Under the pieces are notes generated by a model that made no database searches, was not told the origin of the DNA, and was given only the letters and a program-made list of their open reading frames with translations. A stretch of DNA of 51,298 nt from Planctomycetota bacterium (lineage in GTDB: Bacteria; Planctomycetota; Phycisphaerae; Phycisphaerales; SM1A02). Shown here piece by piece: positions 1,243-14,809 of this stretch (position 1 is the stretch's first letter; every line of letters begins with the position of its first letter). The position numbers and the translations under genes were made by a program. The stretch is taken from assembly GCA_017859745.1 (NCBI GenBank), contig JAFMML010000019.1:1-51298 (forward strand), written 5' to 3'.

Positions 1243-1441
1243 TTCGGGCACCCGCAGGTCGCGGAATCACGGGAATGGCGCGGCCTGGGGAATTCGCCTG
1301 AAGGCACCGGTGGCATGTTGTCAAAGTCGAAAGATGGGTAAACCTTTGGTTGTTGGTTCGAGTTCAGATGGTTGTGGTCGGCGCCGTGGCGCCGGCCAAT
1401 GGACATGACGGGTGTTCCTGGCAAGAACGGAAAGCTGGATC
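1243..1441 (+). other. Intergenic region, possible promoter
   Basis: This 199-base gap separates two paralogous beta-helix genes on the same strand. Its middle (about 1315-1375) is clearly less G+C-rich than the surroundings and holds TTGTCA at 1318-1323 followed by AT-rich sequence, which could be a promoter for the second gene, though no convincing -10 box sits at the right spacing. I see no terminator for the first gene and no small gene. Confidence 0.3.
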
Positions 1442-3817
1442 ATGAACGACGCAATCCACCACTCGCTCACGATCGCTGGTCGATGTGCCGTTGGGACGGT
1501 GGTCGCGATCGCCGCGGCCCTGCCTTCGACGGCGGCCGACTTCGAATCGTGGGCCTTCGAGTCGTCGAAGCTCCAGAGTGGGGGCACCGAGTACTCGGTC
1601 GTGGACGTGTACGCGCAATTCGCGCAGTCCAGTGTTCAGGTGGTCAACGTCTACAACACGAACATCGGCAACGCGGGCGGTTCTCCCTACGTGCAGTCGG
1701 ACTTCATCAACGGCAGTTGGCTTCCGACCCTCGTCAATCCGGCGACGGTGGCCTACGACTCGTTCGTCCTGATCGGTGGGCAACCCGGCGGGACGAACAC
1801 CACGGCGCTCGATCCGAACTTCAACCCCCAGAATGCTCCGGTTCCGCCAGCGAATGCCGGCTGGTACAACTCGAACCCACCGAATCTTCAAGGTCTGAAC
1901 GACTCCTCGACCCTGCGCACCTGGGTCGGGAGGTTCACGGTCGAGGCGACCACGCTCGGTGACCAACTGGTCTTCGATGGATCGGTCAGTTTCGGCGACT
2001 ATCCGGACGGCACACCGCAGCAGGCGACCGGAGCAGGAGTCGGCTACTTCTATCCGACCGACTGCAACGGCAACGGTGTCCCCGATTCGGACGATATTGC
2101 CAGCGGCACTGTCAGCGACTCCAACGGGAACGGCATCCCAGACGGTTGCGAGGCGGACTGCGATCTCAATGGCATTCCCGATGCCTTCGATGAGGATTCA
2201 GACGGCGACGGAGTGCCGGACGCATGTGATGGTTGCCCGACGGATCCGAACAAGACCGAACCTGGTCTGTGCGGATGCGGCGTGGCCGACACGGACACGG
2301 ACAGCGACGGGACGCCCGACTGCAATGACGGTTGCCCGACCGATCCGAACAAGACCGAACCCGGCGTGTGCGGATGCGGCGTTGCGGATACCGACAGCGA
2401 CTCGGACGGCACACCCGACTGCAACGACGGGTGTCCCAGCGATCCCAACAAGATCGCTCCCGGCACCTGCGGCTGCGGCGTAGCGGATACCGACACGGAC
2501 TCGGACGGCACGCCCGACTGCAACGACGGTTGCCCGGCCGACCCGAACAAGACCGAGCCCGGTGTGTGCGGATGCGGCGTGGCCGACACGGACACGGACG
2601 GCGACGGGGTGGCGGATTGCATCGACAACTGTCCCGACCTTTCCAATCCCAGTCAGGCAGACTGCGATCTGGATGGCATCGGCGACGTCTGCGCGATTGC
2701 CGATGGTGCCGCCGACTGCAACGACAACGGCATTCCCGACAGTTGCGACATCGCCGACGGCACATCCGCCGATGCCAACGACAACGGCGTGCCGGATTCC
2801 TGCGAAGAAGTGGTCGTGGTCAATGTCCCCGGCGACTACGCGACCATCGGCGATGCCCTCGCGGCCGTCGAGAACGGGGCCGTCATCGAGATCGAGCCCG
2901 GCACCTATCCCGGTCCGATCGAACTCGCCGGCCTGTCGGTCACCCTGCAGGGGGTCGACGGCGCCGAAGTGATTCTCGATGGTGCGGGACTCGATGGGCC
3001 GGTGGTCACGGTGCTCGCCCCCGACGGAGTAGCCGGCGGATCGCTTGTGGTGTTCAAGCACATCGTGGTCCGCGGTGGATCGATCGGCACGGTCGTCGAT
3101 GGCGTCGAGGGTCCCATCGGTGGCGGCATCGCCATGGTGAATGCTTCGCTGCGACTGGAAGACTGCGTCGTCGAGAGCAACAGCGCCGGCTCCGGCGGCG
3201 CAATCGGCGCGGTGGCCTCGACGCTCGTGCTGTTGGACTCGCAGGTGCGCGACAACGTCGCGACCAACGATGGCGGCGCCTTGTTCGCCAAGGACAGCGA
3301 TGTCGCGGTCGAGAACACCACCCTCTCCGGCAACATTGCGGGAGATCGAGGGGGTGCGATCGGGGCCGTGGGGGGCGAGCTGCTGATCGAGATCTGCGTG
3401 TTCGAGTCGAACACCGCGTCGGCCGAGGGCGGTGCAATCGCCTGGTCGGGCGGCGGCTTCGGTGCTTCGATCCTCGACTCCGAGATCCGCCTGAACAGCG
3501 GCTCCATCGGCGGCGGCATCTGGATCGGCGAAGATGCGTCGACGCTCGAGATCGGGGACTCCGTCGTCTGCGACAACGAGCCGAACGAGATCGAGGGCGG
3601 GTTCACCGACCTTGGTGGCAACGAGATCTGCGGGGCCTGTCTCGGCGACCTGAATGCCGACGGCCAGGTCGATGGCGCCGATCTGGCTGCGATCCTCGGA
3701 TCGTGGGGTGTCTGCGGTGGCGGGGACTGCGCCGTTGCGGATGTCAACGGGGACGGGACCGTCGATGGTGCCGATCTTGCCGCGGTGCTCGGCAACTGGG
3801 GCGTGTGCGCGCCTTGA
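1442..3817 (+). CDS. Secreted beta-helix protein with thrombospondin type 3 repeats and dockerin-like tail
   Basis: 791 residues. The ATG at 1442 is preferred over a GTG at 1412 because GGAAAG lies 7-8 nt upstream and the protein then starts with a signal peptide (MNDAIHH, hydrophobic core to about residue 30, cut near ALPSTAA). Residues 30-195 form an unrecognised N-terminal domain; 200-460 are Asp/Cys-rich thrombospondin type 3-like repeats, including four near-identical 33-residue units; 465-730 are a right-handed beta-helix (repeated GGAIGAV, GGALFAK, GGGIWIG); the last 60 residues carry two dockerin-like repeats ending W-G-V-C-A-P. Likely extracellular and calcium-binding. A strong intrinsic terminator follows. 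Ligand and role cannot be told from the sequence. Confidence 0.88.
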   Translation: MNDAIHHSLTIAGRCAVGTVVAIAAALPSTAADFESWAFESSKLQSGGTEYSVVDVYAQFAQSSVQVVNVYNTNIGNAGGSPYVQSDFINGSWLPTLVNPATVAYDSFVLIGGQPGGTNTTALDPNFNPQNAPVPPANAGWYNSNPPNLQGLNDSSTLRTWVGRFTVEATTLGDQLVFDGSVSFGDYPDGTPQQATGAGVGYFYPTDCNGNGVPDSDDIASGTVSDSNGNGIPDGCEADCDLNGIPDAFDEDSDGDGVPDACDGCPTDPNKTEPGLCGCGVADTDTDSDGTPDCNDGCPTDPNKTEPGVCGCGVADTDSDSDGTPDCNDGCPSDPNKIAPGTCGCGVADTDTDSDGTPDCNDGCPADPNKTEPGVCGCGVADTDTDGDGVADCIDNCPDLSNPSQADCDLDGIGDVCAIADGAADCNDNGIPDSCDIADGTSADANDNGVPDSCEEVVVVNVPGDYATIGDALAAVENGAVIEIEPGTYPGPIELAGLSVTLQGVDGAEVILDGAGLDGPVVTVLAPDGVAGGSLVVFKHIVVRGGSIGTVVDGVEGPIGGGIAMVNASLRLEDCVVESNSAGSGGAIGAVASTLVLLDSQVRDNVATNDGGALFAKDSDVAVENTTLSGNIAGDRGGAIGAVGGELLIEICVFESNTASAEGGAIAWSGGGFGASILDSEIRLNSGSIGGGIWIGEDASTLEIGDSVVCDNEPNEIEGGFTDLGGNEICGACLGDLNADGQVDGADLAAILGSWGVCGGGDCAVADVNGDGTVDGADLAAVLGNWGVCAP
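2228..2623 (+). repeat. Four tandem 99-bp repeats inside the beta-helix gene
   Basis: Units start at 2228, 2327, 2426 and 2525, each exactly 99 bp (33 codons). Each encodes DGCP-x-DPNK-x(2)-PG-x-CGCGVADTD followed by an Asp-rich stretch. The first, second and fourth are almost identical at DNA level; the third is the most diverged in its front half (SDPNKIAPGTC), and the fourth diverges at its end. The unit keeps frame, so unit number can change without breaking the gene. Confidence 0.9.
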
Positions 3818-4742: not shown

Positions 4743-5870
4743 TCAGGCCCCGAGTCGATCGGGATTGAGCGGCTCGAGCTCGGGCGGGACGAAGATTCCG
4801 TCGCGGCGAACCACCTTCCCGTCGAAGTGGATCTCGCCGCCGCCGAACTCGGGACGCTGGATCGTGACGAGGTCCCAGTGGATCTCCGAGCGGTTGCCGT
4901 TGTCGGCGTCGTCGTAGGCTCGTCCCGGAGTGAAGTGGAAGCTGCCGGCGATCTTCTCGTCGAACAGGATGTCCCGCATCGGCCGAAGGATTCTCGGGTT
5001 GAACCCGATCGCGAACTCGCCGACGAATCGCGCTCCCTCGTCGGTGTCGAGGATCTCCTCGATCGCGGCGGTGCCGGCTCCGCCCGCGCTCGCTTCGACG
5101 ACTCGGCCGCTCCTGAAGACGAGTCGCACGTCGTCGAACGCCTTGCCGTTGTAGACCGTCGGTGCGTTGCAGTGCAGCACGCCCTCGACCGAGTCCCTCA
5201 CCGGGGCGGTGAAGCACTCGCCGTCGGGGATGTTGTGCTCGCCGGTGCAACTGCGAACGGGGATTCCCCGGATCGAGAACGACAGGTCGGTGTCGCCGGG
5301 GCCGACGATGCGGACCCGGTCCGTGGCCTCCATCAGATCCGCAAGCGGCCGAGCGGCCTCGGCCATGCGCGCGTAGTCCAGCGTGCACACCGCGAAGTAG
5401 AAGGACTCGAACTCGCGGGTGGACATGCCGGCAAGTTGGGCCATGCCGGGATTCGGCCACCGCAGAACCACCCATCGGGTGTGGTTCACCCGCTGCTCGA
5501 AGTGGACCGGCGTCAGGTAGTCCCGGCCCCAGGCCTTCTGCTCGTCCGCGGACAGGCCCGCGAGTTCGGAGATGTTGCTGCTGCCTCGGATGCCGACGTA
5601 GCAGTCCATCTTCTCCATGCGATGTCGGTCGCACTCGGCCCAGCATGCCAGTGCCGCCGGATCGGCGCCGCCGACGATCGCCGGCATGAGTCGGCTCGAC
5701 CGCAGCGCGAGATGGGCGTGGCCGCCTTCCGCGCGAATCGCATCGATGAGGGACTCGAGCATCGGTTCGGGCGTGTCCCACGCCTCGATGAGGACGTGCT
5801 CGCCCGCCTTGACGCGGGTCGAATGGCGGGCGAGGAGCGAGGCGAGATCTTCGTGGCGGGTGTTGCTCAT
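4743..5870 (-). CDS. M29 family aminopeptidase (AmpS-like)
   Basis: 375 residues, about 10 % shorter than the typical 410 of thermophilic aminopeptidases AmpS/AmpT. The family uses two metal ions to remove N-terminal residues from peptides in the cytosol. The metal-binding set appears complete: Glu285 (GEFAIG), Glu305 (DEKIAGS), His312 (FHFTPG), His331 and Asp333 (IHWD). The family motif GEHNIPDGE is present as well. There is no signal peptide. No Shine-Dalgarno sequence precedes the ATG; the CACAAT box six bases before it could be a -10 of a leaderless transcript, but this is weak. Convergent with mtnN. Confidence 0.85.
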   Translation of the reverse strand: MSNTRHEDLASLLARHSTRVKAGEHVLIEAWDTPEPMLESLIDAIRAEGGHAHLALRSSRLMPAIVGGADPAALACWAECDRHRMEKMDCYVGIRGSSNISELAGLSADEQKAWGRDYLTPVHFEQRVNHTRWVVLRWPNPGMAQLAGMSTREFESFYFAVCTLDYARMAEAARPLADLMEATDRVRIVGPGDTDLSFSIRGIPVRSCTGEHNIPDGECFTAPVRDSVEGVLHCNAPTVYNGKAFDDVRLVFRSGRVVEASAGGAGTAAIEEILDTDEGARFVGEFAIGFNPRILRPMRDILFDEKIAGSFHFTPGRAYDDADNGNRSEIHWDLVTIQRPEFGGGEIHFDGKVVRRDGIFVPPELEPLNPDRLGA

Positions 5871-5976
5871 GGCGGCATTGTGGCATGAAGCCGCGGACCC
5901 GACAGGGGTCGCGATGGCCGGGCACCCGGGACTGCGAGGTGGGCGAGTGCCGACGAGATCGGGAGCGGTCCATGGA

Positions 5977-6005
5977 GAACGCCCCCCGCGGGGCGGGGGG
6001 CGTTC
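5977..6005 (-). terminator. Strong hairpin downstream of the PepSY gene
   Basis: A perfect 11-bp stem (GAACGCCCCCC at 5977-5987, GGGGGGCGTTC at 5995-6005) with a 7-base loop starts 47 bases after the stop of the minus-strand PepSY gene. There is no T-run on either side, so it may work with Rho or as a 3' stabiliser rather than as a classic intrinsic terminator. Confidence 0.6.
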
Positions 6006-6052
6006 GAGTCCCGACCGATGATTCGGCCGGGGTCAGGGGCGAAGGTGCCGGG

Positions 6053-7195
6053 TCAGTTCCACGCGATCAGCAGCGTGCCCAGTTCGACGCCTCCCGGGAC
6101 CATGTCGCCGTCGAGGTCGTACCCGGGGTTCAGGGTGCCCCAGACCGAGAGCAGCTCGGCGAGGTCGCCGGCATTCACGAGTCCGTTGGCGTCGTAGTCG
6201 CAGGGATGGAAGTTGACTCCGGCGTGGGAGGCGGCGGGATCCTTGCCGAAGGCGTCGACGAGGACGTCGATCTCGAAGCCCATCGAGTTGACCAGCTCGA
6301 CTTCGTAGAAGACGCCGAGGTCCTCGGCCTTCAGAGAGATCTCGTGGACGCCGATCGCATCCGGTTGGGCGACGAGGGCCTCGGCCATCGCGCCGGCGAA
6401 GGTCGTGGTGATGGTGCCCAGCACGTCGATCACCGGCTGCAATCGAGCCAGCTGCGTGCCGGACGGGGTGTAGGAGATCGTTTCGATCATCTCCAGGGTC
6501 GTGGCGTCGAAGATGGTCTGGACCAGCATGCCGTTCTTGGCGTCCCACTGGAGGACTTCGACGACCGTGGCGACGTTGTCGTCGCCGCCGGCCTCGTCCT
6601 CGCCCTTCGCCTCGAGGACCGGAAGGCCGTTGAGGACCACCGCCGCGTCGATGCCCGCAAGCAGCTGATCGGGTGGCAGCACATCGTCGTCCTCGCCCTC
6701 GTCGCCGTGCTCGTTGACGACGGCTCCGGTGGCGGCGTCGACGTAGATCCTGGTCTCGTCGGAGTACTCGATCTGATAGGCGAGGATCCCGGCTTCGAAG
6801 TCGAGCTGGCTCTTCCAGGCGATCGCACCTTCGTCCACCAGTTCACCGGCGATCGCCAGTGCATCGACGAAGTCGATCTGGATCGCCTCCGGATCTCCGA
6901 AGATCGCCTCGTACACCGGAAGCTCCTCGGGATCGATCGGATCGATCTCGATGCCCAGCACCTTGCCGGTGAAGGCGTCGATCTCGATCTGCTCCTCGTC
7001 GACGAGATCCGCGTTCACGAAGCTCGCCTTCCAGAACGCGTCGTCATCGACGTCGCGAAGGTCGATCTGGACCAGAGTTCGATCCGGCGACATCTCGCGA
7101 GCGATCCCGATGGCGTCTTCCATGGGCACGGTCTGGCCCACGGCGATGGCGGGCGTGCCGAGAAGTGCGAGAACGGTGAATCTGAGACGGTTCAT
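6053..7195 (-). CDS. Secreted PepSY-domain protein with dockerin-like tail
   Basis: 380 residues, with a signal peptide at 1-20 (MNRLRF, hydrophobic stretch, cut near AVGQT) and GGAGAG upstream of the ATG. Residues 22-100 and 115-185 read as two PepSY-type units (IEIDAFTGKVLGIE; RIYVDAATGAVVNE). PepSY domains occur in propeptides and inhibitors of secreted peptidases. The protein is strongly acidic. The last 50 residues are a dockerin-like pair (YDANGLVNAGDLAELLSVWG and a degenerate second copy ending LIAWN). The gene is divergent from the sigma/CHAT/subtilase unit, and its tail resembles that of the subtilase, so it could inhibit or partner that protease; this is inference. Confidence 0.8.
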   Translation of the reverse strand: MNRLRFTVLALLGTPAIAVGQTVPMEDAIGIAREMSPDRTLVQIDLRDVDDDAFWKASFVNADLVDEEQIEIDAFTGKVLGIEIDPIDPEELPVYEAIFGDPEAIQIDFVDALAIAGELVDEGAIAWKSQLDFEAGILAYQIEYSDETRIYVDAATGAVVNEHGDEGEDDDVLPPDQLLAGIDAAVVLNGLPVLEAKGEDEAGGDDNVATVVEVLQWDAKNGMLVQTIFDATTLEMIETISYTPSGTQLARLQPVIDVLGTITTTFAGAMAEALVAQPDAIGVHEISLKAEDLGVFYEVELVNSMGFEIDVLVDAFGKDPAASHAGVNFHPCDYDANGLVNAGDLAELLSVWGTLNPGYDLDGDMVPGGVELGTLLIAWN

Positions 7196-7273: not shown

Positions 7274-7279
7274 TACACT
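7274..7279 (+). promoter_or_regulatory. Possible -10 box before the sigma factor gene
   Basis: TACACT lies 17 bases before the proposed ATG at 7297, in the 101-base divergent gap between the PepSY gene and the sigma gene. It matches the TAnnnT boxes seen before other genes here. No clear -35 box is visible at 17-base spacing. Confidence 0.3.
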
Positions 7280-7296
7280 CGAATGACGATCTTTCG

Positions 7297-7875
7297 ATGC
7301 CCGACGACGCCCGAACGCTGATCGATCGCTGCCTTCATGGCGAAGCCGACGCCTGGCGTCGCTTCGTGGAGAAGTACACCCGGCTCGTCTGGAGCATCGT
7401 TCGGCAGCACCGCCTCGACGAGGCCGACGCCGAGGATGTGCATCAGGCGGTCTTTGCGATCGCGGTCTCCCGTCTGCACCGCCTTCGAGACGCGGAGCAG
7501 ATCGCCGGATGGCTTGCCACCACCACCCGTCGCGAGTGCTGGCGGGTCATGCGTCGTCGCCGTGCGGTCGTCTCGGCCGGGGGCGAGTCCATGACCGAGG
7601 TGCCTGCGAGCGACGCCACCCCCGAGGACGCCCGCGTCTCGATCGAGGAGCGTCAGATCGTTCGAGAAGGCCTCGAGGAGCTCGGCGGCCGCTGCCAGGA
7701 GCTGCTGGAGGCGCTCTTCTCGGCGCCCGGAGAACCCTCCTATCCGCAGATCTCGGCCCGTTTGGGAATGCCGGTGGGAAGCATCGGACCGACGCGGGCG
7801 AGGTGCCTGCGGCGACTGTCGGAGATTCTCGAACGTCGCGGTATCCATGGCGGCGGCCGCGACTCGTCTTCCTGA
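7297..7875 (+). CDS. ECF-like sigma-70 family RNA polymerase sigma factor
   Basis: 192 residues from the ATG at 7297 (MPDDARTL); upstream in-frame codons would add an unlikely Pro/Arg-rich leader. Region 2 spans about residues 5-80 (FVEKYTRLVWSIVRQHRLDEADAEDV, then WLATTTRRECWRVMRRRR) and binds core polymerase and the -10 box. Region 4 spans about 128-182 with a helix-turn-helix (YPQISARLGMPVGSIGPTRAR) for -35 recognition. No region 1.1 or 3, hence ECF type. It is the first gene of a unit with a 225-residue protein, a TPR-CHAT protease and a subtilase, so it probably controls this unit or its targets. No membrane anti-sigma factor lies next to it, which is unusual for ECF factors. Confidence 0.88.
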   Translation: MPDDARTLIDRCLHGEADAWRRFVEKYTRLVWSIVRQHRLDEADAEDVHQAVFAIAVSRLHRLRDAEQIAGWLATTTRRECWRVMRRRRAVVSAGGESMTEVPASDATPEDARVSIEERQIVREGLEELGGRCQELLEALFSAPGEPSYPQISARLGMPVGSIGPTRARCLRRLSEILERRGIHGGGRDSSS

Positions 7876-7925
7876 GCAACCGTTCGACTCGCCCGCCTGC
7901 GGGCGTCCCTTCGAGGAGTCCCTTC

Positions 7926-8603
7926 GTGAGCAACGAGCACCCCGGCGACGAATCTCGACCGTCCTCGGACGGCGCTCGACTGGAGTCGCTCGTGGACGAG
8001 GCCCTGGCAGGCGACCTCGTCTCGTTCGACGCGTCCGCCGACGAGCAGCGGTTCATGCGGACGGTGCGTCTCGTGCGGGACGCCGTCGCTGCGGACGCCG
8101 GCGAGGTCGAGGACCCGTCCCGAGCACGAGCCGTCGCTCGCGCTGTCGAACTCGCCGAGATGCTTCCCGCTCCGACAGGGCCGGATCTGCGCGAGCGCGT
8201 CGCCGCGTGGTGGTCGAGGATGCGGGCGATCGTCGCCGAATGCACCTACGAGGAGACCGGCCGCCTCGCCGCTGCGGGTCTGCGTGGAGGGGCATCGCGG
8301 CAGGCGTCCTACCTGGTCGAGGACGGGCCGTCGGCGTGCGAGATCGATCTCGAGATCGGGATGAGCGACGACGCCGGCTTCTGCCGGCTGCACGGTCAGG
8401 TCCATGCACTCGACGAGTCGATCGAGATGTTCGGGGCCGCGATCGCGGCGGTGTCCGGCGACGAACCGGACGATCCTTCGGCGGTGGGCATCGTCGACGA
8501 CGAAGGCTTCTTCGAACTGACGGTCGCTGCGGGACGCTACGACCTGGCGATCTCGATCGGCGTCGGGCCGGCGGCGCTGGTGCCCGATCTCGAGGTGCCG
8601 TGA
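7926..8603 (+). CDS. Soluble 225-residue protein between sigma factor and CHAT protease
   Basis: The GTG at 7926 has GAGGAG seven bases upstream. The protein has no signal peptide and no membrane segment. Residues 15-95 look helical and are rich in Ala, Arg and Asp; residues 140-225 look like a beta-sandwich of the carboxypeptidase-regulatory type (LHGQVHALDE ... DDEGFFELTVAAGRYDLAI). I do not recognise a named family. Its stop codon overlaps the start of the CHAT gene (GTGA), so the two are translationally coupled. By position it is a candidate partner or inhibitor of the sigma factor, or a substrate of the CHAT protease, in analogy to Csx30; the sequence itself shows no such similarity that I can see. 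Confidence 0.75.
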   Translation: MSNEHPGDESRPSSDGARLESLVDEALAGDLVSFDASADEQRFMRTVRLVRDAVAADAGEVEDPSRARAVARAVELAEMLPAPTGPDLRERVAAWWSRMRAIVAECTYEETGRLAAAGLRGGASRQASYLVEDGPSACEIDLEIGMSDDAGFCRLHGQVHALDESIEMFGAAIAAVSGDEPDDPSAVGIVDDEGFFELTVAAGRYDLAISIGVGPAALVPDLEVP

Positions 8604-11600
8604 ACGACGCGACGACGAGTCCGCGTGGCGATGGTGGTGGAGGTGGAGAGCCCCTCGACCTGGAGGCGTTCGTCGCCCTCGATGCGGCCGTTCGAGACGA
8701 ACGGCTGCAATCGACCGGAGATCCCGACGCCGAGTTGCGGCGTCTTGGGGACGAGGCGGAGCGGGCCGTGTCGACCGATCCTGCCATCGCCCTCGAACGC
8801 CTCGAGATGGTCGGAGAAGCCGCCGATCGGCTTGGGCATCCCGGTGCCGCCGCACGGGCCTCCCGGGGGCGAGTGCTGGCGATGGCCTATCTCGGGCGTC
8901 TCGAGGCTGCCGCGGAGTTCGCGGCCTCGGAGCGAGAGAGTGCCGAGGCCTCGGGCGAGACGATCGAGGCGGCGCGCCTTCGACTTGCGGCGATGCAGCC
9001 CCTTCTGAAGCTCGGAAGGGTGGCCGAGGCGATCGCGGAGGGCGAGGCGGCCGTTCGGACCTTCGACGACGCCGATCGACCCGACCTTGCCGGCCGAGCC
9101 GAGATCAACCTCGGCAACGTCCGCAAGGCCGCGGGAGACGCGTTGGCCGCGCTCGACCATCTCGGCCGGGCGCGGCAGGCCCTCCAGGACGATGCGACGC
9201 TTGTCGCGACCATCGACAACACCAGAGGCGAGGCGCTGCTCGATCTCGATCGCCTTGGAGATGCGCGATCGGCCTTCGAAGCCGCTGGTTCGCACTTCGC
9301 GTCGGCCGGCCACGCCTTCGCATCGGCGATCGTCGAGGGCAACCTCGCCGACCTCGCGGGCCGATCGGGTCATCTCGCCGAGGCGTTCGAGCGGTTCGCC
9401 TCGGCGCGGGCGGCGCTGGGGGATCGCGCCGACGGTCACGCCGCGCGTTTGGCGATGGAGGAGGGGGAGGTCTTCGACGCGGTCGGTCTGCACGACGTCG
9501 CTCTCGAGCGCCTCCGCGAGGCTCGAACTCGCTTCGATGCGATCGGCCTGGCGTACGAGTCGATCCGCGCTGCGCTTGCCGAGGCGTCCGCGCTGGAGAA
9601 CCTGGATCGGCCGGGCGAGGCGAGCGCCACGTTGGCGTCGCTCGACGAGGCCATCGCTCGAGTCGACCATCCGGGCCTGCGGGTGCGCCGCGATGCGAGG
9701 CTCGCCCGGCTCGCAGCGGCGGCGGCACGACGCACCGGAGACGTTCGCGATCGCGCCGCCGCCGAGGCGTTCGGCCGACGCGCCTTCGGCGATGGAGACG
9801 AGACCGACGCCGTGCCGGGGATCTCCGAAGTCGATCGCCTGCGGGTGCTGCTCGATCGATCGAGGTGGCATGAGGATCTCGGTCGGCCGGTGGAGGCGAA
9901 CGCCAGCGCGGAGCAGGCCGAGGCGTTGGCTGGGGAACTGGGCCTGGGCATCGCGATCGCCGAGAGCGGAGTCCGCCGTGCCGAACTCGCCCGTCGCCGC
10001 GGCGACGACGACGCCGCCGTCGAATCCGCCCGTCGCGCCGTCGCCGAGATCGAGCGCACCCGAGACGCCCTCGGTGCCGAACGACTGCGTGCCGCGTTCT
10101 CGGGACGCCGCCTCGGGGCCTACGAGCAGCTGGTGTTGTCGCTGCTGGCCCGAGGAGGAGAATCGGCCACGGCCGAGGCGTTCGAGGTCGCCGAACTTGC
10201 GCGAAGCCGCACCCTGCTCGAGCGGATCGGCAGGCGCGCGGAGGTCGCCGGCGACGGTCCGGGTGCGGGGTCCGAGGACGCGATCGATCCTTCCGATCCC
10301 GAGATTCGCGGCCTTCTGGAGAAGCTGCAGGGGCTGCACGCGAGACTGTCCGCCGAAGCGCGAGACGATCAGCGATCCGGTCTGCCGGTTCGGGTGCGTC
10401 GCGAACTGGCCGAAGCGGAGGCGGAACTCGAGCGACGGCTGGCGGCGCGATCGGCCGTCGGCGGTTCGGCGGCACCCGGTCGGCGTTCGCGGGTCGAGGG
10501 GAGCGAATGGCGTCGTCGTCTCGCGGACGACGAGGCGATCGTCGAGTACTTCGAGGCGTCGGGACGGTGGATCGCGTTCGTCGCCACACGAGATCGCATC
10601 GAGGCGCTTCCGCTCGAACTCGCAACCGGAGAGGTCCACGACGCCCTCGACCGCTTCGCCTTCCGATCCCGCCGACGCCTTCGCGCCAACGGACCGACGC
10701 CCGGTGCTCGAAGCATCGCAGTCGATTCGATCCTGTCGCATCTTGGGAGCCGACTTTGGGGGCCCGTCGCGGGACGGCTCGATGGACGACGTCGCGTGAC
10801 GGTCGTTCCCCATGGGGTGCTGCATGGCGTCCCGTTTGCGGCGCTCGACGTCGGTGAAGGCCCGCTCGTCGCGCATCACCATCTGTCGATCGCTCCAAGC
10901 GTTGCGGTGTGGCTGAGCCTGCGCGAGCAGGCGGCTCGCCGCGAAGCGCCCGGCCGGACCGTCCTCGTCGGTGTCACCGACGACGCCGCCCCCGCCGTCG
11001 AAGACGAGATCCGCGGCATCGCGGCGGCGATCGACCCGACCGGTGGGCCGGTCGCGACATCCGATTCGCGGCCTTCCATGCCGGCCGTGCGTTCCGCCGC
11101 CGCGCCCGAAGTCCTTTGCGGTTGCGAAGCGGGGGCGGACGCGGTGCTGGACCGGCTGGCGGATCCGGGTGTCGGCATGGTGCATCTGGCCTGCCACGGT
11201 CGCTTCCTTCCAGAGGCGCCGCACGCCAGCGGCCTGAGGCTCTCGGACCGTTGGGTCTCGGTTCGCGATCTGATGGCGTTGCCTCGCACGCCGTCGGTCG
11301 TCGTGCTCAGCGGATGCGAGACCGGAGGTCTCTCCGTCCGGCGTGGAGAGGAGGTGCTGGGCCTCGCGAGAACCCTGCTCGCCACGGGGACCCGATCGGT
11401 GATCGCGAGCCTGTGGCCGGTCTCCGACCGAAGCACCTGCGAACTCATGGTGGACTTCCATCGTTGCTGGAGTACGTTCGAAGCCGGGTCCACGGCGTCG
11501 GTCGCCGCGGCGTTGGCGGAGGCCCAACGCGCTCTCGGCCGCTCGACGGGGTTCGAACATCCGGCTCACTGGGCCTCGTTCTTCACGATCGGACACGCCT

Positions 11601-11605
11601 CATGA
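8600..11605 (+). CDS. TPR-CHAT caspase-like protease
   Basis: 1001 residues from a GTG at 8600 that overlaps the stop codon of the preceding gene. Residues 20-640 are helical, Ala/Arg/Glu-rich and read as tetratricopeptide repeats (for example RAEINLGNVRKAAGDALAALDHLGRA and AFASAIVEGNLADLAGRSGHLAEAFERF). About residues 690-1001 are a CHAT domain (caspase HetF-associated with TPRs): VVPHGVLHGVPFAALD, then HLACHG with the catalytic His866, SGCETG with the catalytic Cys906, and the closing HPAHWASFFTIG. Both catalytic residues are intact, so an active cysteine endopeptidase is expected, probably switched on by a partner bound to the TPR part. There is no signal peptide, so it is cytosolic. Its stop overlaps the subtilase start (ATGA). 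Confidence 0.9.
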   Translation: MNDATTSPRGDGGGGGEPLDLEAFVALDAAVRDERLQSTGDPDAELRRLGDEAERAVSTDPAIALERLEMVGEAADRLGHPGAAARASRGRVLAMAYLGRLEAAAEFAASERESAEASGETIEAARLRLAAMQPLLKLGRVAEAIAEGEAAVRTFDDADRPDLAGRAEINLGNVRKAAGDALAALDHLGRARQALQDDATLVATIDNTRGEALLDLDRLGDARSAFEAAGSHFASAGHAFASAIVEGNLADLAGRSGHLAEAFERFASARAALGDRADGHAARLAMEEGEVFDAVGLHDVALERLREARTRFDAIGLAYESIRAALAEASALENLDRPGEASATLASLDEAIARVDHPGLRVRRDARLARLAAAAARRTGDVRDRAAAEAFGRRAFGDGDETDAVPGISEVDRLRVLLDRSRWHEDLGRPVEANASAEQAEALAGELGLGIAIAESGVRRAELARRRGDDDAAVESARRAVAEIERTRDALGAERLRAAFSGRRLGAYEQLVLSLLARGGESATAEAFEVAELARSRTLLERIGRRAEVAGDGPGAGSEDAIDPSDPEIRGLLEKLQGLHARLSAEARDDQRSGLPVRVRRELAEAEAELERRLAARSAVGGSAAPGRRSRVEGSEWRRRLADDEAIVEYFEASGRWIAFVATRDRIEALPLELATGEVHDALDRFAFRSRRRLRANGPTPGARSIAVDSILSHLGSRLWGPVAGRLDGRRRVTVVPHGVLHGVPFAALDVGEGPLVAHHHLSIAPSVAVWLSLREQAARREAPGRTVLVGVTDDAAPAVEDEIRGIAAAIDPTGGPVATSDSRPSMPAVRSAAAPEVLCGCEAGADAVLDRLADPGVGMVHLACHGRFLPEAPHASGLRLSDRWVSVRDLMALPRTPSVVVLSGCETGGLSVRRGEEVLGLARTLLATGTRSVIASLWPVSDRSTCELMVDFHRCWSTFEAGSTASVAAALAEAQRALGRSTGFEHPAHWASFFTIGHAS

Positions 11606-13110
11606 ACGTCCTGCGATCCATCCTCGAATCGTCCCGCGTTGGTCTGCTGCTGACGGCGTGCCTCGGAATCGGAGGGCTCGATGCCCAGCTGCTTGCGGGC
11701 GACGATCGCGATCCGTTGATTCCGGATCAGATCGTGCTGCAACTCGCGCCGGATCGCTCGCTGGATTCGGTGCTGGCGACGCTCGCGCCGTTCGCACCGG
11801 GTCTCGAGGCGGTCGAACAGGTTCCGGGCCGGCCGATCCACCTGCTTCGGTTCGATGTCGAGGGTGACGAGCCTTCCCCCGAACTCGAGCAGGCCCTGCA
11901 GCAGCTGGTCGTCGCGGGTGTGCTCGTGTGGGGCGAGTTCGGCTACGAGGCTCAGACCGGCGAAGGGCGCACCGACTCGCTGTGGGTGACCGGCCTGAGT
12001 CTCGGTCCCGCGGACTATCGAGGGCAGTTCGCCGGCGAGTTGCTGGGACTCGATGCTGCGCACGGGATGGCCCGTGGTGCCGGCGTCGTCGTGGCGATCG
12101 TCGACAGCGGGCTCGACGCCACCCATCCTGTGATCGACGCCCCGATCTCGGCCGCGGCCATCGATCTCGTCGATGGCGGTGTGGCGATCACCGATCCCGC
12201 CGATGGCGTGGACAACGACGGCGACGGCCTCGTCGACGAGATGGCCGGCCACGGCACCTTCGTCGCGAGCCTCGTGCATCTGGTTGCGCCCGAGGCGACG
12301 CTGTTGCCCATCCGCATCCTCGACACCGAGGGTCGCACCAGCGTCTATCTCATGGTGAAGGGCATCGCAGCGGCGATCGATGCGGGCGCCGACATCATCA
12401 ACATGAGCGTGGGCACGACCTACGACTCGGTCGCCATCGAGTACCTCGTGGACGAAGCCGAAGCGGCGGGCATCGTTCTGATCGCCTCGATCGGCAATCT
12501 CGATCGCGAGGAGCCGAAGGAGCATCCCGCCGCAGACGGCGGCGCCTACGGGGTGGTCGCGACCGATCCGCTCGATCACCGGGCCGCCTTCTCGAACTTC
12601 GGCGACTTCGCGGCGCTGGCGGCGCCGGGCACGATCGCCTTCGGCGGCAAGGGTGAACTCGATCCGATCTCCTCGGTGCTCGGTGCGGTTCCGGGCGGCG
12701 GGGTCGGAGGTTGGTCCGGCACGAGCTTCTCGACCGCCTTCGTCGCGGGTGCCGCAGCGCTGGTGCGGGGGCAGCACCCCGAATGGCCCGATGCCGAGAC
12801 GCCGGCGGGAGATCTCGCCGACGAGGTGATGGATCGCCTGCGCGCGAGCGCCGTGCCGATCGACGCGAACAATCCGGGCTACGAGGAACTGCTCGGAGCC
12901 GGCCGTCTCGACGTCGCCGCCGCCGTCGCGCTCGGTCCGCCGGTCCTCGATCCGGCGGACTTCGATGGGGACGGCGTCGTCGGAGGCGCCGATCTGGCCT
13001 TCCTGCTTTCGCACTGGGGTTCGTGTGCGGGTTGCCCCGCGGACCTCGATGGCGACGCCTTCGTCGGCGGCTCCGATCTCGCCGGCCTGTTGGCGGCGTG
13101 GACGAACTGA
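11602..13110 (+). CDS. Secreted S8 subtilisin-like peptidase with dockerin-like tail
   Basis: 502 residues from an ATG at 11602 that overlaps the CHAT stop codon. The N-terminus is hydrophobic with LTAC at 17-20, a fair lipobox, so it may be a lipoprotein anchored at Cys20. Residues 40-130 look like a prodomain; the S8 catalytic domain spans about 150-440 with Asp168 (VDSGLDATHP), His217 (GHGTFVASL), oxyanion Asn299 (SIGN) and Ser375 (SGTSFSTAF). An Asp-rich loop (DNDGDGLVD) sits between Asp and His. The last 55 residues are two dockerin-like repeats (DGDGVVGGADLAFLLSHWG; DGDAFVGGSDLAGLLAAW). All triad residues are present. It is the outward-facing end of the sigma/CHAT unit. Confidence 0.9.
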   Translation: MNVLRSILESSRVGLLLTACLGIGGLDAQLLAGDDRDPLIPDQIVLQLAPDRSLDSVLATLAPFAPGLEAVEQVPGRPIHLLRFDVEGDEPSPELEQALQQLVVAGVLVWGEFGYEAQTGEGRTDSLWVTGLSLGPADYRGQFAGELLGLDAAHGMARGAGVVVAIVDSGLDATHPVIDAPISAAAIDLVDGGVAITDPADGVDNDGDGLVDEMAGHGTFVASLVHLVAPEATLLPIRILDTEGRTSVYLMVKGIAAAIDAGADIINMSVGTTYDSVAIEYLVDEAEAAGIVLIASIGNLDREEPKEHPAADGGAYGVVATDPLDHRAAFSNFGDFAALAAPGTIAFGGKGELDPISSVLGAVPGGGVGGWSGTSFSTAFVAGAAALVRGQHPEWPDAETPAGDLADEVMDRLRASAVPIDANNPGYEELLGAGRLDVAAAVALGPPVLDPADFDGDGVVGGADLAFLLSHWGSCAGCPADLDGDAFVGGSDLAGLLAAWTN

Positions 13111-13172: not shown

Positions 13173-13952
13173 ATGTCCACACCCCGCCTTGTCGTCCTCT
13201 CGACGCTCGCCGCCGTTGGTCTCGTCTCCAGCGTCGCCGCGGCCCAGCAGTCCCAATCGGACCCTCGCTACAAGGTCCACGACATGAGCCGGCCGCAGCC
13301 GCCGGTGGTGGACCCGGGCACGCCCTCGTCGCAGGCGAAGGCGGGGACCGCGCCCGCCGACGCCGTCGTCCTGTTCGACGGCACGAATCTCTCGAAGTGG
13401 CGGGCCGGCAACGGCGATGCGGCGTGGAAGGTCGTCGACGGGGTGATCGAGGTCGCGGCGGGCACCGGCTCGCTGATCACCCGCGAGTCCTTCGGAGACT
13501 GCCAGTTCCACATCGAGTGGATGGTGCCGACGTCGCTCGAGCCCGATGGACAGAAGGGCTGCAACAGCGGCGTCTTCTTCATGGAGATGTACGAGGTGCA
13601 GATCCTCCACTCCAACGGCAACGAGACCTATCCCGACGGCATGGCGGGTTCGCTCTACGGCCAGTACCCGCCGCTTGTGAACGCGTGCCGACCGCAGGGC
13701 GAGTGGAACACCTACGACATCACCTTCACGGCGCCGCGCTTCAACGACAACGGCAGCGTGAAGACGCCCGCCTACTGCACGGTGCTCTTCAACGGCGTGG
13801 TCGTGCAGAACCACGTCGAGTTCTTCGGCCGCACCGCCCACATGCGACCCGCGGCGTACTCGAAGCACCCCGATCGCCTGCCGATCTCGATCCAGGACCA
13901 CGGCGACAAGCTGCGGTTCCGCAACATCTGGGTGCGGCCGCTGGGGCAGTGA
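13173..13952 (+). CDS. Secreted DUF1080 (3-keto-disaccharide hydrolase-like) protein, copy 1
   Basis: 259 residues; AGGAG stands 9 bases before the ATG. A signal peptide covers about 1-24 (LVVLSTLAAVGLVSSVAAAQQ). The rest is one DUF1080 domain, a concanavalin-like jelly roll related to GH16: VVLFDGTNLSKWR at the start, DCQFHIEWMVP, NSGVFFMEMYEVQILHS, YDITFTAPRF, and the closing ISIQDHGDKLRFRNIWVRPL. Proteins of this family are numerous in planctomycetes and some cleave 3-keto-glycosides; substrate here is unknown. The next gene is a close paralogue, so the pair arose by tandem duplication. Two downstream genes encode the planctomycete cytochrome/DUF1501 pair. Confidence 0.88.
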   Translation: MSTPRLVVLSTLAAVGLVSSVAAAQQSQSDPRYKVHDMSRPQPPVVDPGTPSSQAKAGTAPADAVVLFDGTNLSKWRAGNGDAAWKVVDGVIEVAAGTGSLITRESFGDCQFHIEWMVPTSLEPDGQKGCNSGVFFMEMYEVQILHSNGNETYPDGMAGSLYGQYPPLVNACRPQGEWNTYDITFTAPRFNDNGSVKTPAYCTVLFNGVVVQNHVEFFGRTAHMRPAAYSKHPDRLPISIQDHGDKLRFRNIWVRPLGQ

Positions 13953-14020
13953 GGCCGGAGCCACCTGCGCCCTTGGAGGCCTCTCCGGGCGAATGATCGA
14001 GATCGATGCAAGGACCTTCC

Positions 14021-14809
14021 ATGAACCCCGCGAAGTCGCCATCCTCCCGACGTGTCGTCGCGATCTGCGGCGGACTGGTCCTGTCCGCGACGGCCTGCGC
14101 CCAGCAGTCCCAGTCCGATTCCCGCTACAAGATCCACGACATGGCTCGCCCGCAGCCTTCGGTGGTCGCGCCGGGGACGCCGTCGACGCAGGCGAACGTC
14201 GGAACCGCGCCCGCGGACGCGATCGTCCTGTTCGACGGCACCGATCTCTCGAAGTGGAGCGATGGAAGCGGCGATGCGAGGTGGCGCCTCGTCGATGGCG
14301 TGATCGAGTCGGTGCCGGGCGGCGGCTACCTGACCACCCGCGAGGCCTTCGGCGACTGCCAACTGCATCTGGAGTGGATGGTGCCCGCGGACCTGAAGCC
14401 CAAGGGCGGGGCCGGCGCCAACAGCGGCGTCTATCTGATGCAGCAGTACGAGGTGCAGATCCTTCGTCGGGAGGATCGTCCGACCTATCCCGACGGCATG
14501 GCCGGCGCGATCTACGGGCAGCATCCTCCACTGGCCGCGCCGGACCTTCCCAAGGGCGAGTGGAACACCTTCGACATCCTGTTCACGGCGCCGCGCTTCG
14601 ACGAGGATGGCAGTCTGAAGACGCCCGCCTACTGCACGGTGATCTTCAACGGCGTGGTCGTTCAGAACCATGTGGAGATCTTCGGTCGTACCGCGGCGGG
14701 GCAGCCGCCCACCTACGCGAAGCACCCGGATCGGATGCCGATCTCCATACAGGACCACGGCGACCGAGTTCGCTTCCGGAACATCTGGATCCGCCCGATG
14801 GGCGAGTGA
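14021..14809 (+). CDS. Secreted DUF1080 protein, copy 2
   Basis: 262 residues from the ATG at 14021, chosen over an ATG at 14006 because AAGGA (14010-14014) then sits six bases upstream. The leader ends in SATACAQQSQS, so Cys may be a lipid attachment site; the first copy has AAAQQ there instead. The DUF1080 domain has the same landmarks as copy 1 (VLFDGTDLSKW, DCQLHLEWMVP, NSGVYLMQQYEVQIL, FDILFTAPRF, ISIQDHGDRVRFRNIWIRP). Both mature N-termini share AQQSQSD-x-RYK-x-HDM-x-RPQP, which is unusual for a mere linker. Loss of some non-core identity suggests the two have different partners or substrates. Confidence 0.88.
   Translation: MNPAKSPSSRRVVAICGGLVLSATACAQQSQSDSRYKIHDMARPQPSVVAPGTPSTQANVGTAPADAIVLFDGTDLSKWSDGSGDARWRLVDGVIESVPGGGYLTTREAFGDCQLHLEWMVPADLKPKGGAGANSGVYLMQQYEVQILRREDRPTYPDGMAGAIYGQHPPLAAPDLPKGEWNTFDILFTAPRFDEDGSLKTPAYCTVIFNGVVVQNHVEIFGRTAAGQPPTYAKHPDRMPISIQDHGDRVRFRNIWIRPMGE

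Follow-up and report, generated by a model that had tools for sequence, protein, structure and literature searches.

A four-gene locus in a planctomycete contig

We analysed a run of four genes encoding an extracytoplasmic function (ECF)-like sigma factor, a small protein here called X, a TPR-CHAT protease and an S8 subtilase, found in Planctomycetota bacterium (GTDB lineage Bacteria; Planctomycetota; Phycisphaerae; Phycisphaerales; SM1A02; assembly GCA_017859745.1). The stretch of DNA under study, hereafter the window, is 51,298 nucleotides long and is the entire contig JAFMML010000019.1 of a 3.24 Mb, 147-contig genome. A first-pass annotation, made from the sequence alone, had placed the four genes on the same strand and had named three of them as an ECF-like sigma factor, a TPR-CHAT protease and an S8 peptidase; both the positions and these identities were confirmed, the latter by matches to PF04542, TIGR02937, PF12770 and PF00082. 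The features of the locus are as follows (position, strand, description; E values in brackets):

7274–7279, +, TACACT, a −10-like box at 17 nt from the start codon of sigma (on its upstream side), perhaps a promoter element of the operon
7297–7875, +, sigma gene, ECF-like sigma factor of 192 residues (PF04542, Sigma70_r2, 2.6e-9; TIGR02937, 5.5e-20)
7926–8603, +, gene X, GTG start, most likely a soluble anti-sigma-type protein of 225 residues (family alignment A1); domain order: N-terminal anti-sigma-like domain, linker, beta domain
8283–8285, +, codon for Arg120 of X, the residue proposed to occupy P1 in cleavage by CHAT (Arg conservation)
8600–11605, +, TPR-CHAT protease gene, GTG start, 1001 residues (PF12770, 2.4e-49, residues 712–998; TPR_12, 0.0051)
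11195–11197, +, codon of CHAT catalytic His866 (alignment column)
11315–11317, +, codon of CHAT catalytic Cys906 (alignment column)
11602–13110, +, S8 subtilase gene, 502 residues, signal-peptide-like N-terminus and C-terminal dockerin-like repeats (PF00082, 4.7e-35)
12958–13103, +, two dockerin-like repeats at the subtilase C-terminus (repeat family D2)

The sigma and X genes are separated by 50 nt; the stop codon of X and the start codon of the CHAT gene share the sequence GTGA (8600–8603), and the CHAT stop and S8 start share ATGA (11602–11605), both overlaps being those annotated earlier. The sigma region-4 signature GSIGPTRARCL is common throughout the sigma alignment. At the threshold used, a single CHAT match was found in the whole genome.

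The four genes are a conserved unit

Linkage was scored from six-frame profile matches rather than from gene calls. Sixty neighbourhoods, a part of all the places matched in 181 genomes of the same family, were fetched (23 by X and 37 by CHAT) and together with the window gave 61 scored loci; those with a short flank or a partial CHAT match were excluded from the linkage counts, among them L047, in which the CHAT match ends at model position 220 and no S8 match was in range. With the window counted, X and the sigma gene were on the same strand in all 48 family loci with enough upstream sequence, S8 was present in 51 of the 53 loci in which the CHAT match ran to its end and the downstream flank was long enough, and all four genes were found in 41 of the 43 fully testable loci; S8 was missing from two testable loci, L042 and L080. 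The loci chosen by CHAT alone gave the same picture: X and sigma lay ahead on the same strand in 27/27, S8 followed CHAT in 34/35, and the complete set was seen in 25/26. No CHAT match was present in the fetched loci L048 and L049, and a sigma gene next to X was not seen in these two or in L026. Because the loci are related, these counts do not represent independent events. Moreover, the unit is patchy: own genome included, X relatives occur in 23 and TPR-CHAT in 53 of the 181 genomes, and neither was found in G178, which belongs to the same genus.

The X profile was also run against 392 genomes of the phylum and had matches in 194 of them; those listed were mostly partial, covering either the N-terminal anti-sigma portion or the beta portion by itself. 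Outside the family, 12 of 30 returned loci contained both X and CHAT (L129, L130, L132–L139, L142 and L143), and in 10 of these 12 a sigma gene lay directly upstream on the same strand, the other two being L134 and L142. The subtilase gene was found upstream of sigma in L129/L167, L130/L169, L132, L133, L135 and L137, and downstream of CHAT in L168, L170 and L171, which are from other families. The change in gene order with membership kept argues for a functional link rather than for passive inheritance. On an acidobacterial contig from a metagenome-assembled genome (L026), X, CHAT and S8 are consecutive. Three actinobacterial CHAT loci (L161–L163) had no sigma or X match nearby at E values up to 1. 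Thus, the four genes are a real conserved unit and not a chance grouping, and the gene order on which the first-pass annotation had staked its proposal is conserved outside this genome.

X probably belongs to an anti-sigma-type family

The 225-residue protein had been assigned to no recognised family, a description that its relatives revise. Among the 41 members of alignment A1, and at E values up to 1, zf-HC2 was matched by nine (best 2.8e-4) and CarboxypepD_reg by 12 (best 4.2e-5); window X matched neither. When the family profile was compared with PDB sequences, 13 chains were found at E values up to 10, the best of which was NOMO2 (2.1e-7), aligned to the beta domain. Five of the 13 are anti-sigma N-terminal domains, all aligned within profile positions 1–78, and every one of them is weak alone and none significant (0.047 to 1.2): 3hug (0.047), DdvA 8rlz (0.2), the MucA-type 6in7 (0.8), RseA 1or7 (0.84) and 8z6g (1.2). 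We take 3hug to be RslA. In seven loci the match was to the N-terminal domain only (L144, L147, L148, L149, L151, L152 and L153), and a sigma gene was directly upstream in all seven; a local profile found the domain again in six of them, L151 being the exception. Moreover, the zinc-ligand-like pattern H-x4-C-x2-C is present in X of L026, L129, L130, L132, L133, L135 and L136. The window protein has no transmembrane-like stretch (maximum 19-residue hydropathy 1.32). The earlier statement that the locus has no ordinary membrane anti-sigma factor therefore stands in that X is not membrane-bound, and falls in that X, judged by its relatives, is of anti-sigma type.

Several points, besides the weakness of the individual structural matches, tell in the other direction. 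Searches of Pfam, NCBIfam and PADLOC with window X alone gave no match, and the N-terminal domain of this protein is a shortened form without the zinc ligands; the stretch of the profile aligned to the anti-sigma chains is also matched by two designed helical-repeat proteins (0.12 and 7.5); and single-sequence AlphaFold2 models lend no fold support, being of low confidence for both the window protein (pLDDT 44.8) and its L026 relative (39.8). Window X is read as an anti-sigma factor because the members of its family are so read. The results for the family, several of them weak, agree with one another, and on these grounds we consider X most likely to be a soluble anti-sigma factor of class-I type, and very probably an inhibitor of the sigma factor encoded in its own operon, to which it would bind.

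Short proteins resembling X occur in another setting. At L165 (2–2554, +), an S8 gene is followed by two short X-like proteins lacking the anti-sigma domain and by a histidine-kinase-like protein (assigned by eye). At L164 (2762–3492, −), in the same genome, a pair of comparable short proteins occurs with a comparable kinase, and no S8 match was found on the short contig. Neither locus has a CHAT or sigma match. Perhaps the beta module of X is an element that accompanies S8 more generally.

A conserved arginine in the linker of X

The linker was compared in 67 X sequences that span it, leaving out the duplicates L124–L128 and L131. Arg120 is found in 66 of the 67, and no other position of X is as conserved (entropy 0.11 bits); next come Phe196 and Gly157 (63/67 each) and Gly194 (62/67). 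In a low-confidence model Arg120 follows a long predicted helix and precedes the first strand. At the putative P2 position, 66/67 sequences have a hydrophobic residue (L, V, F, Y, I, A or M), and the P1′ residue is G, S, D or A in 61/67. Other clan CD proteases, separase and the metacaspases among them, are known to take arginine at P1. Arg120 is present in all 64 X sequences with a CHAT match in the locus; of the three lacking such a match, L048 and L145 keep Arg and L049 carries Gly; L145 is the same locus as L164, in which X lacks the anti-sigma domain. The Gly of L049 is a single case, noticed post hoc. That X (5409–6044) is an orphan, with no sigma, CHAT or operon-type S8 match on its 13.5 kb contig. 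From the conservation of Arg120 and its neighbours we tentatively regard this residue as a candidate site at which the CHAT protease may cut, a proposal that we hold at somewhat less than even confidence.

The two proteases

Both proteases had been described as having intact active sites, and this holds for the window and for its relatives. Of the 71 rows of the CHAT alignment, the column of His866 is His in all 55 with a letter (16 gaps) and that of Cys906 is Cys in all 56 with a letter (15 gaps); both residues are also intact in 5/5 further loci. In the subtilase of the window the triad is Asp168/His217/Ser375, and D, H and S are complete in 53 of 54 rows, the remaining one (L113) being cut off at the contig end before the Ser; the triad is likewise intact in five further loci. 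By eye, most S8 proteins of the family have a signal-peptide-like start and dockerin-like C-terminal repeats. The window subtilase scored 0.0018 against the GC-type dockerin model NF041540, which is under the model cut-off, and repeat family D2 occurs in two other genes of the window, 1–1242 and 1412–3817, both of which match Dockerin_1. A candidate for the S1-pocket acid that would receive an Arg, CHAT Glu918, lies in a column that is acidic in 54/55 family rows and Gly in 10/15 outgroup rows; it is Ala in one of the five further loci, and we did not retain it other than as a lead.

Promoter and genomic surroundings

A scan for two-box sigma-70-type promoters between 7000 and 13300, which does not cover other promoter types, returned 0 sites, so that separate promoters, which the first-pass annotation had counted against a single unit, were not detected inside it. 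Two terminator-like matches lie near the end of the CHAT gene, against a shuffled mean of 2.2. The TACACT box is found close upstream of sigma in 10/43 family regions (300 shuffles gave 0.37 on average and 3 at most); its carriers are mostly of one genus, so that the count is not independent, and no −35 partner was identified for it. An ECF-type autoregulatory promoter was sought and rejected, as upstream dyad counts were not clearly above those of shuffled sequences: none of the 4+4, 4+3 and 5+4 maxima exceeded those of the shuffles, and for 5+5 the maximum (4) equalled the highest of five shuffles. The simplest reading is a putative housekeeping-type promoter before the sigma gene.

Upstream, a gene for a PepSY-domain protein (6053–7195) is divergent from the sigma gene, with 101 bp between them, and two tandem 3-keto-disaccharide hydrolase-like (PF06439) genes directly follow the subtilase gene (13173–14809). 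Further away, a tandem repeat of five overlapping copies with 99-bp spacing (2129–2722) lies inside the dockerin-bearing gene 1412–3817. The window also contains a PSCyt1/PSCyt2/PSD1-domain gene and a DUF1501 gene, which fit a planctomycete.

A proposed proteolytic sigma switch

We propose that the N-terminal anti-sigma domain of X holds the ECF-type sigma factor inactive in the cytosol, and that a signal read by the TPR superhelix of CHAT or by the beta domain of X would activate the TPR-CHAT cysteine protease. The activated protease would cut the X linker after Arg120, parting the anti-sigma domain from the beta domain; X would thereby be destabilised and the sigma factor freed to direct a transcriptional response. 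The dockerin-bearing subtilase would be secreted and most likely work beyond the membrane, belonging either to the response or to the apparatus that generates the signal. The proposal draws on the linkage of the genes, the anti-sigma homology of X, the conserved linker Arg, the intact active sites and the precedent of Csx29 and Csx30 (see below). Control of sigma and X through CHAT proteolysis is likely in our judgement, and the whole scheme of a protease-controlled cytosolic switch, with its binding, cleavage, site, trigger and subtilase role, is probable to a similar degree. The first-pass annotation had suggested a switch of this kind with the subtilase as an extracellular output or input; the conserved unit and the probable role of X as sigma inhibitor agree with it.

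The proposal has to be weighed against a number of observations. In the acidobacterial locus L026 no sigma gene was recognised near X. The Arg of four sequences (L048, L108, L109 and L138) falls in the Arg120 column only via insertions, and since L048 and L145 keep the residue without a CHAT match, it could have another role, for instance a structural one. According to the excerpts of PMC11106740, the sites that Craspase cuts in Csx30 are non-conserved, so that the closest precedent does not call for a conserved site. Finally, with no ECF-type two-box motif upstream, autoregulation is unsupported.

Three alternatives were considered. The first, which we regard as fairly unlikely, is that the unit is a conflict system, anti-invader or self-killing, in which active CHAT would cleave several proteins, with the sigma branch as one of its arms; it shares the switch with our proposal and differs in its purpose. 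PADLOC models match both the CHAT core (BovA, 2.2e-8) and the S8 protein (a subtilase model, 1.9e-9), whereas sigma and X match nothing there. The patchy distribution of the unit, with CHAT in 53/181 family genomes and neither CHAT nor X in G178, would suit such a system. So would the cyanobacterial neighbourhoods described by Kaur et al. (2021; excerpts of PMC8195603), for which a conflict role has been proposed and in which ECF sigma and DUF1822 genes accompany caspase-EACC2 genes, and the grouping, on cyanobacterial plasmids, of S8, an uncharacterised protein of about 470 residues, DUF1822, TPR and CHASE2 genes. However, X and DUF1822 have no detectable profile similarity (hhalign probability 0.1).

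Alternatively, X could be an anti-sigma factor controlled by binding, as in a partner switch, with CHAT docking on the linker or beta domain of X and its protease activity serving another substrate. The presence of X, sigma and CHAT together in 48/48 testable family loci and the Arg120 of two X copies without a CHAT match in the locus would both be expected, and Craspase substrate recognition is structural, not sequence-based, in the excerpts of PMC11106740. We nevertheless consider control by binding unlikely, as the CHAT His and Cys are invariant where testable and the conserved Arg, flanked by residues resembling those of a protease site, falls within a short linker predicted by a low-confidence model. 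The third alternative, that the subtilase is the input, with extracytoplasmic proteolysis relayed to CHAT or X and the sigma factor answering envelope stress or contact with prey or a polymer, is compatible with the cutting step that we propose and is consistent with S8 being almost always the fourth gene, on one or the other side of the trio, with a signal-peptide-like N-terminus and dockerin-like repeats, yet it is improbable, as X has no transmembrane segment and no inward-signalling membrane component was identified in the unit, in which a constant extra gene was not systematically sought.

Comparison with known systems

The known protease-controlled ECF switches mostly involve membrane anti-sigma factors and envelope proteases, and class I anti-sigma factors are controlled by site-1, site-2 and Clp proteolysis or by redox sensing. 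RseA and RsiW are cited as protease-controlled examples in the excerpted text of PMC10028731. X resembles class I proteins (of the RslA, MucA, RseA, RsiW and ChrR type) in its N-terminal similarity, in the position of its gene directly after sigma, and in that only a part of its family has zinc-ligand-like residues. The excerpts of PMC7406223 give the class-I signature as Hx3Cx2C, with about 44% of the class lacking a zinc motif and about 35% lacking a transmembrane helix; by this account the H-x4-C-x2-C of the X family is one residue longer, and the motif absent from window X is optional in the class. Unlike many class I proteins, X has no transmembrane helix and carries a beta domain and a linker with a conserved Arg; and it is partnered with CHAT, not with the forms of control just named.

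The cyanobacterial EACC2-caspase neighbourhoods are alike in combining a caspase-like protease, an ECF-like sigma factor and an extra protein of unknown function, and unlike the window unit in their CHASE2 fusions. X was considered as a DUF1822 relative and the idea was dropped; as the two are not detectably related, these systems are a parallel and not a group to which the unit belongs. A PF08852 search of the own genome gave no match, the controls being silent as well, so that it is uninformative alone, and the window-type sigma and X profiles found nothing at E values up to 1 in L123, L154 and L160. On the plasmids L154 (899–11311) and L160 (882–11311), the S8 gene is divergent from those for the 470-residue protein, DUF1822, TPR and CHASE2. 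A relative of the 470-residue protein in L157 has a sigma-like C-terminus (TIGR02937, 5.8e-6, under the cut-off), and the L154 protein has no score.

The closest parallel is type III-E CRISPR, in which, according to the excerpts of PMC10028731, the TPR-CHAT protease Csx29 cuts the sigma inhibitor Csx30, the N-terminal domain of which binds CASP-sigma. Like this CASP/Craspase system, the window unit combines a TPR-CHAT protein with a His/Cys dyad, an ECF-type sigma factor and a probable soluble sigma inhibitor. In contrast to Csx29, window CHAT scores 28 bits against the NF041237 cut-off of 300; Csx29 and TPR-CHAT structures align with it only over the CHAT core (profile positions about 890–983), and a single-sequence PDB search with it returned nothing at 0.1. 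The D. ishimotonii Csx30 is numbered to residue 565 in the same excerpts, whereas X has 225 residues, with an anti-sigma-like and a beta domain; no Csx30 chain was among the 13 PDB matches of the X profile, and no direct comparison with Csx30 was made. The window unit also differs in its nearly constant subtilase partner and, set against the non-conserved sites of Csx30 as excerpted, in its proposed conserved cleavage site. The first-pass annotation had found neither a CRISPR array nor a Cas gene, and within the tests run this holds: no array-like repeats are present in the window, arrays elsewhere in the genome not having been searched, and no Cas1 match was found in the genome, in which Cas7-11 was not searched. 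By this comparison, the window unit would work like the Csx29/Csx30/sigma switch, yet it fails the Csx29 model of type III-E CRISPR.

A single example of sigma control by a TPR-CHAT protease was found, and it is tied to CRISPR. The open-licence literature searched, outside which lie most subscription papers and preprints, contained no description of a CRISPR-free unit, which suggests that the switch is undescribed so far. The gene set recurs across several families of a single phylum and, with no sigma gene visible, in at least one acidobacterium. If our proposal is true, a CRISPR-free version suggests a wider control of sigma factors by caspase-like proteases, and Arg120 provides a specific, testable cleavage site. 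It is conceivable, though we put it forward with some doubt, that these units form a CRISPR-free class in which an Arg-specific TPR-CHAT protease would cut a soluble anti-sigma factor at a hydrophobic-Arg|small site, together with a dedicated secreted subtilase, and that type III-E systems would represent the attachment of Cas7-11 to this pre-existing design, which would offer a route for the origin of the type III-E switch.

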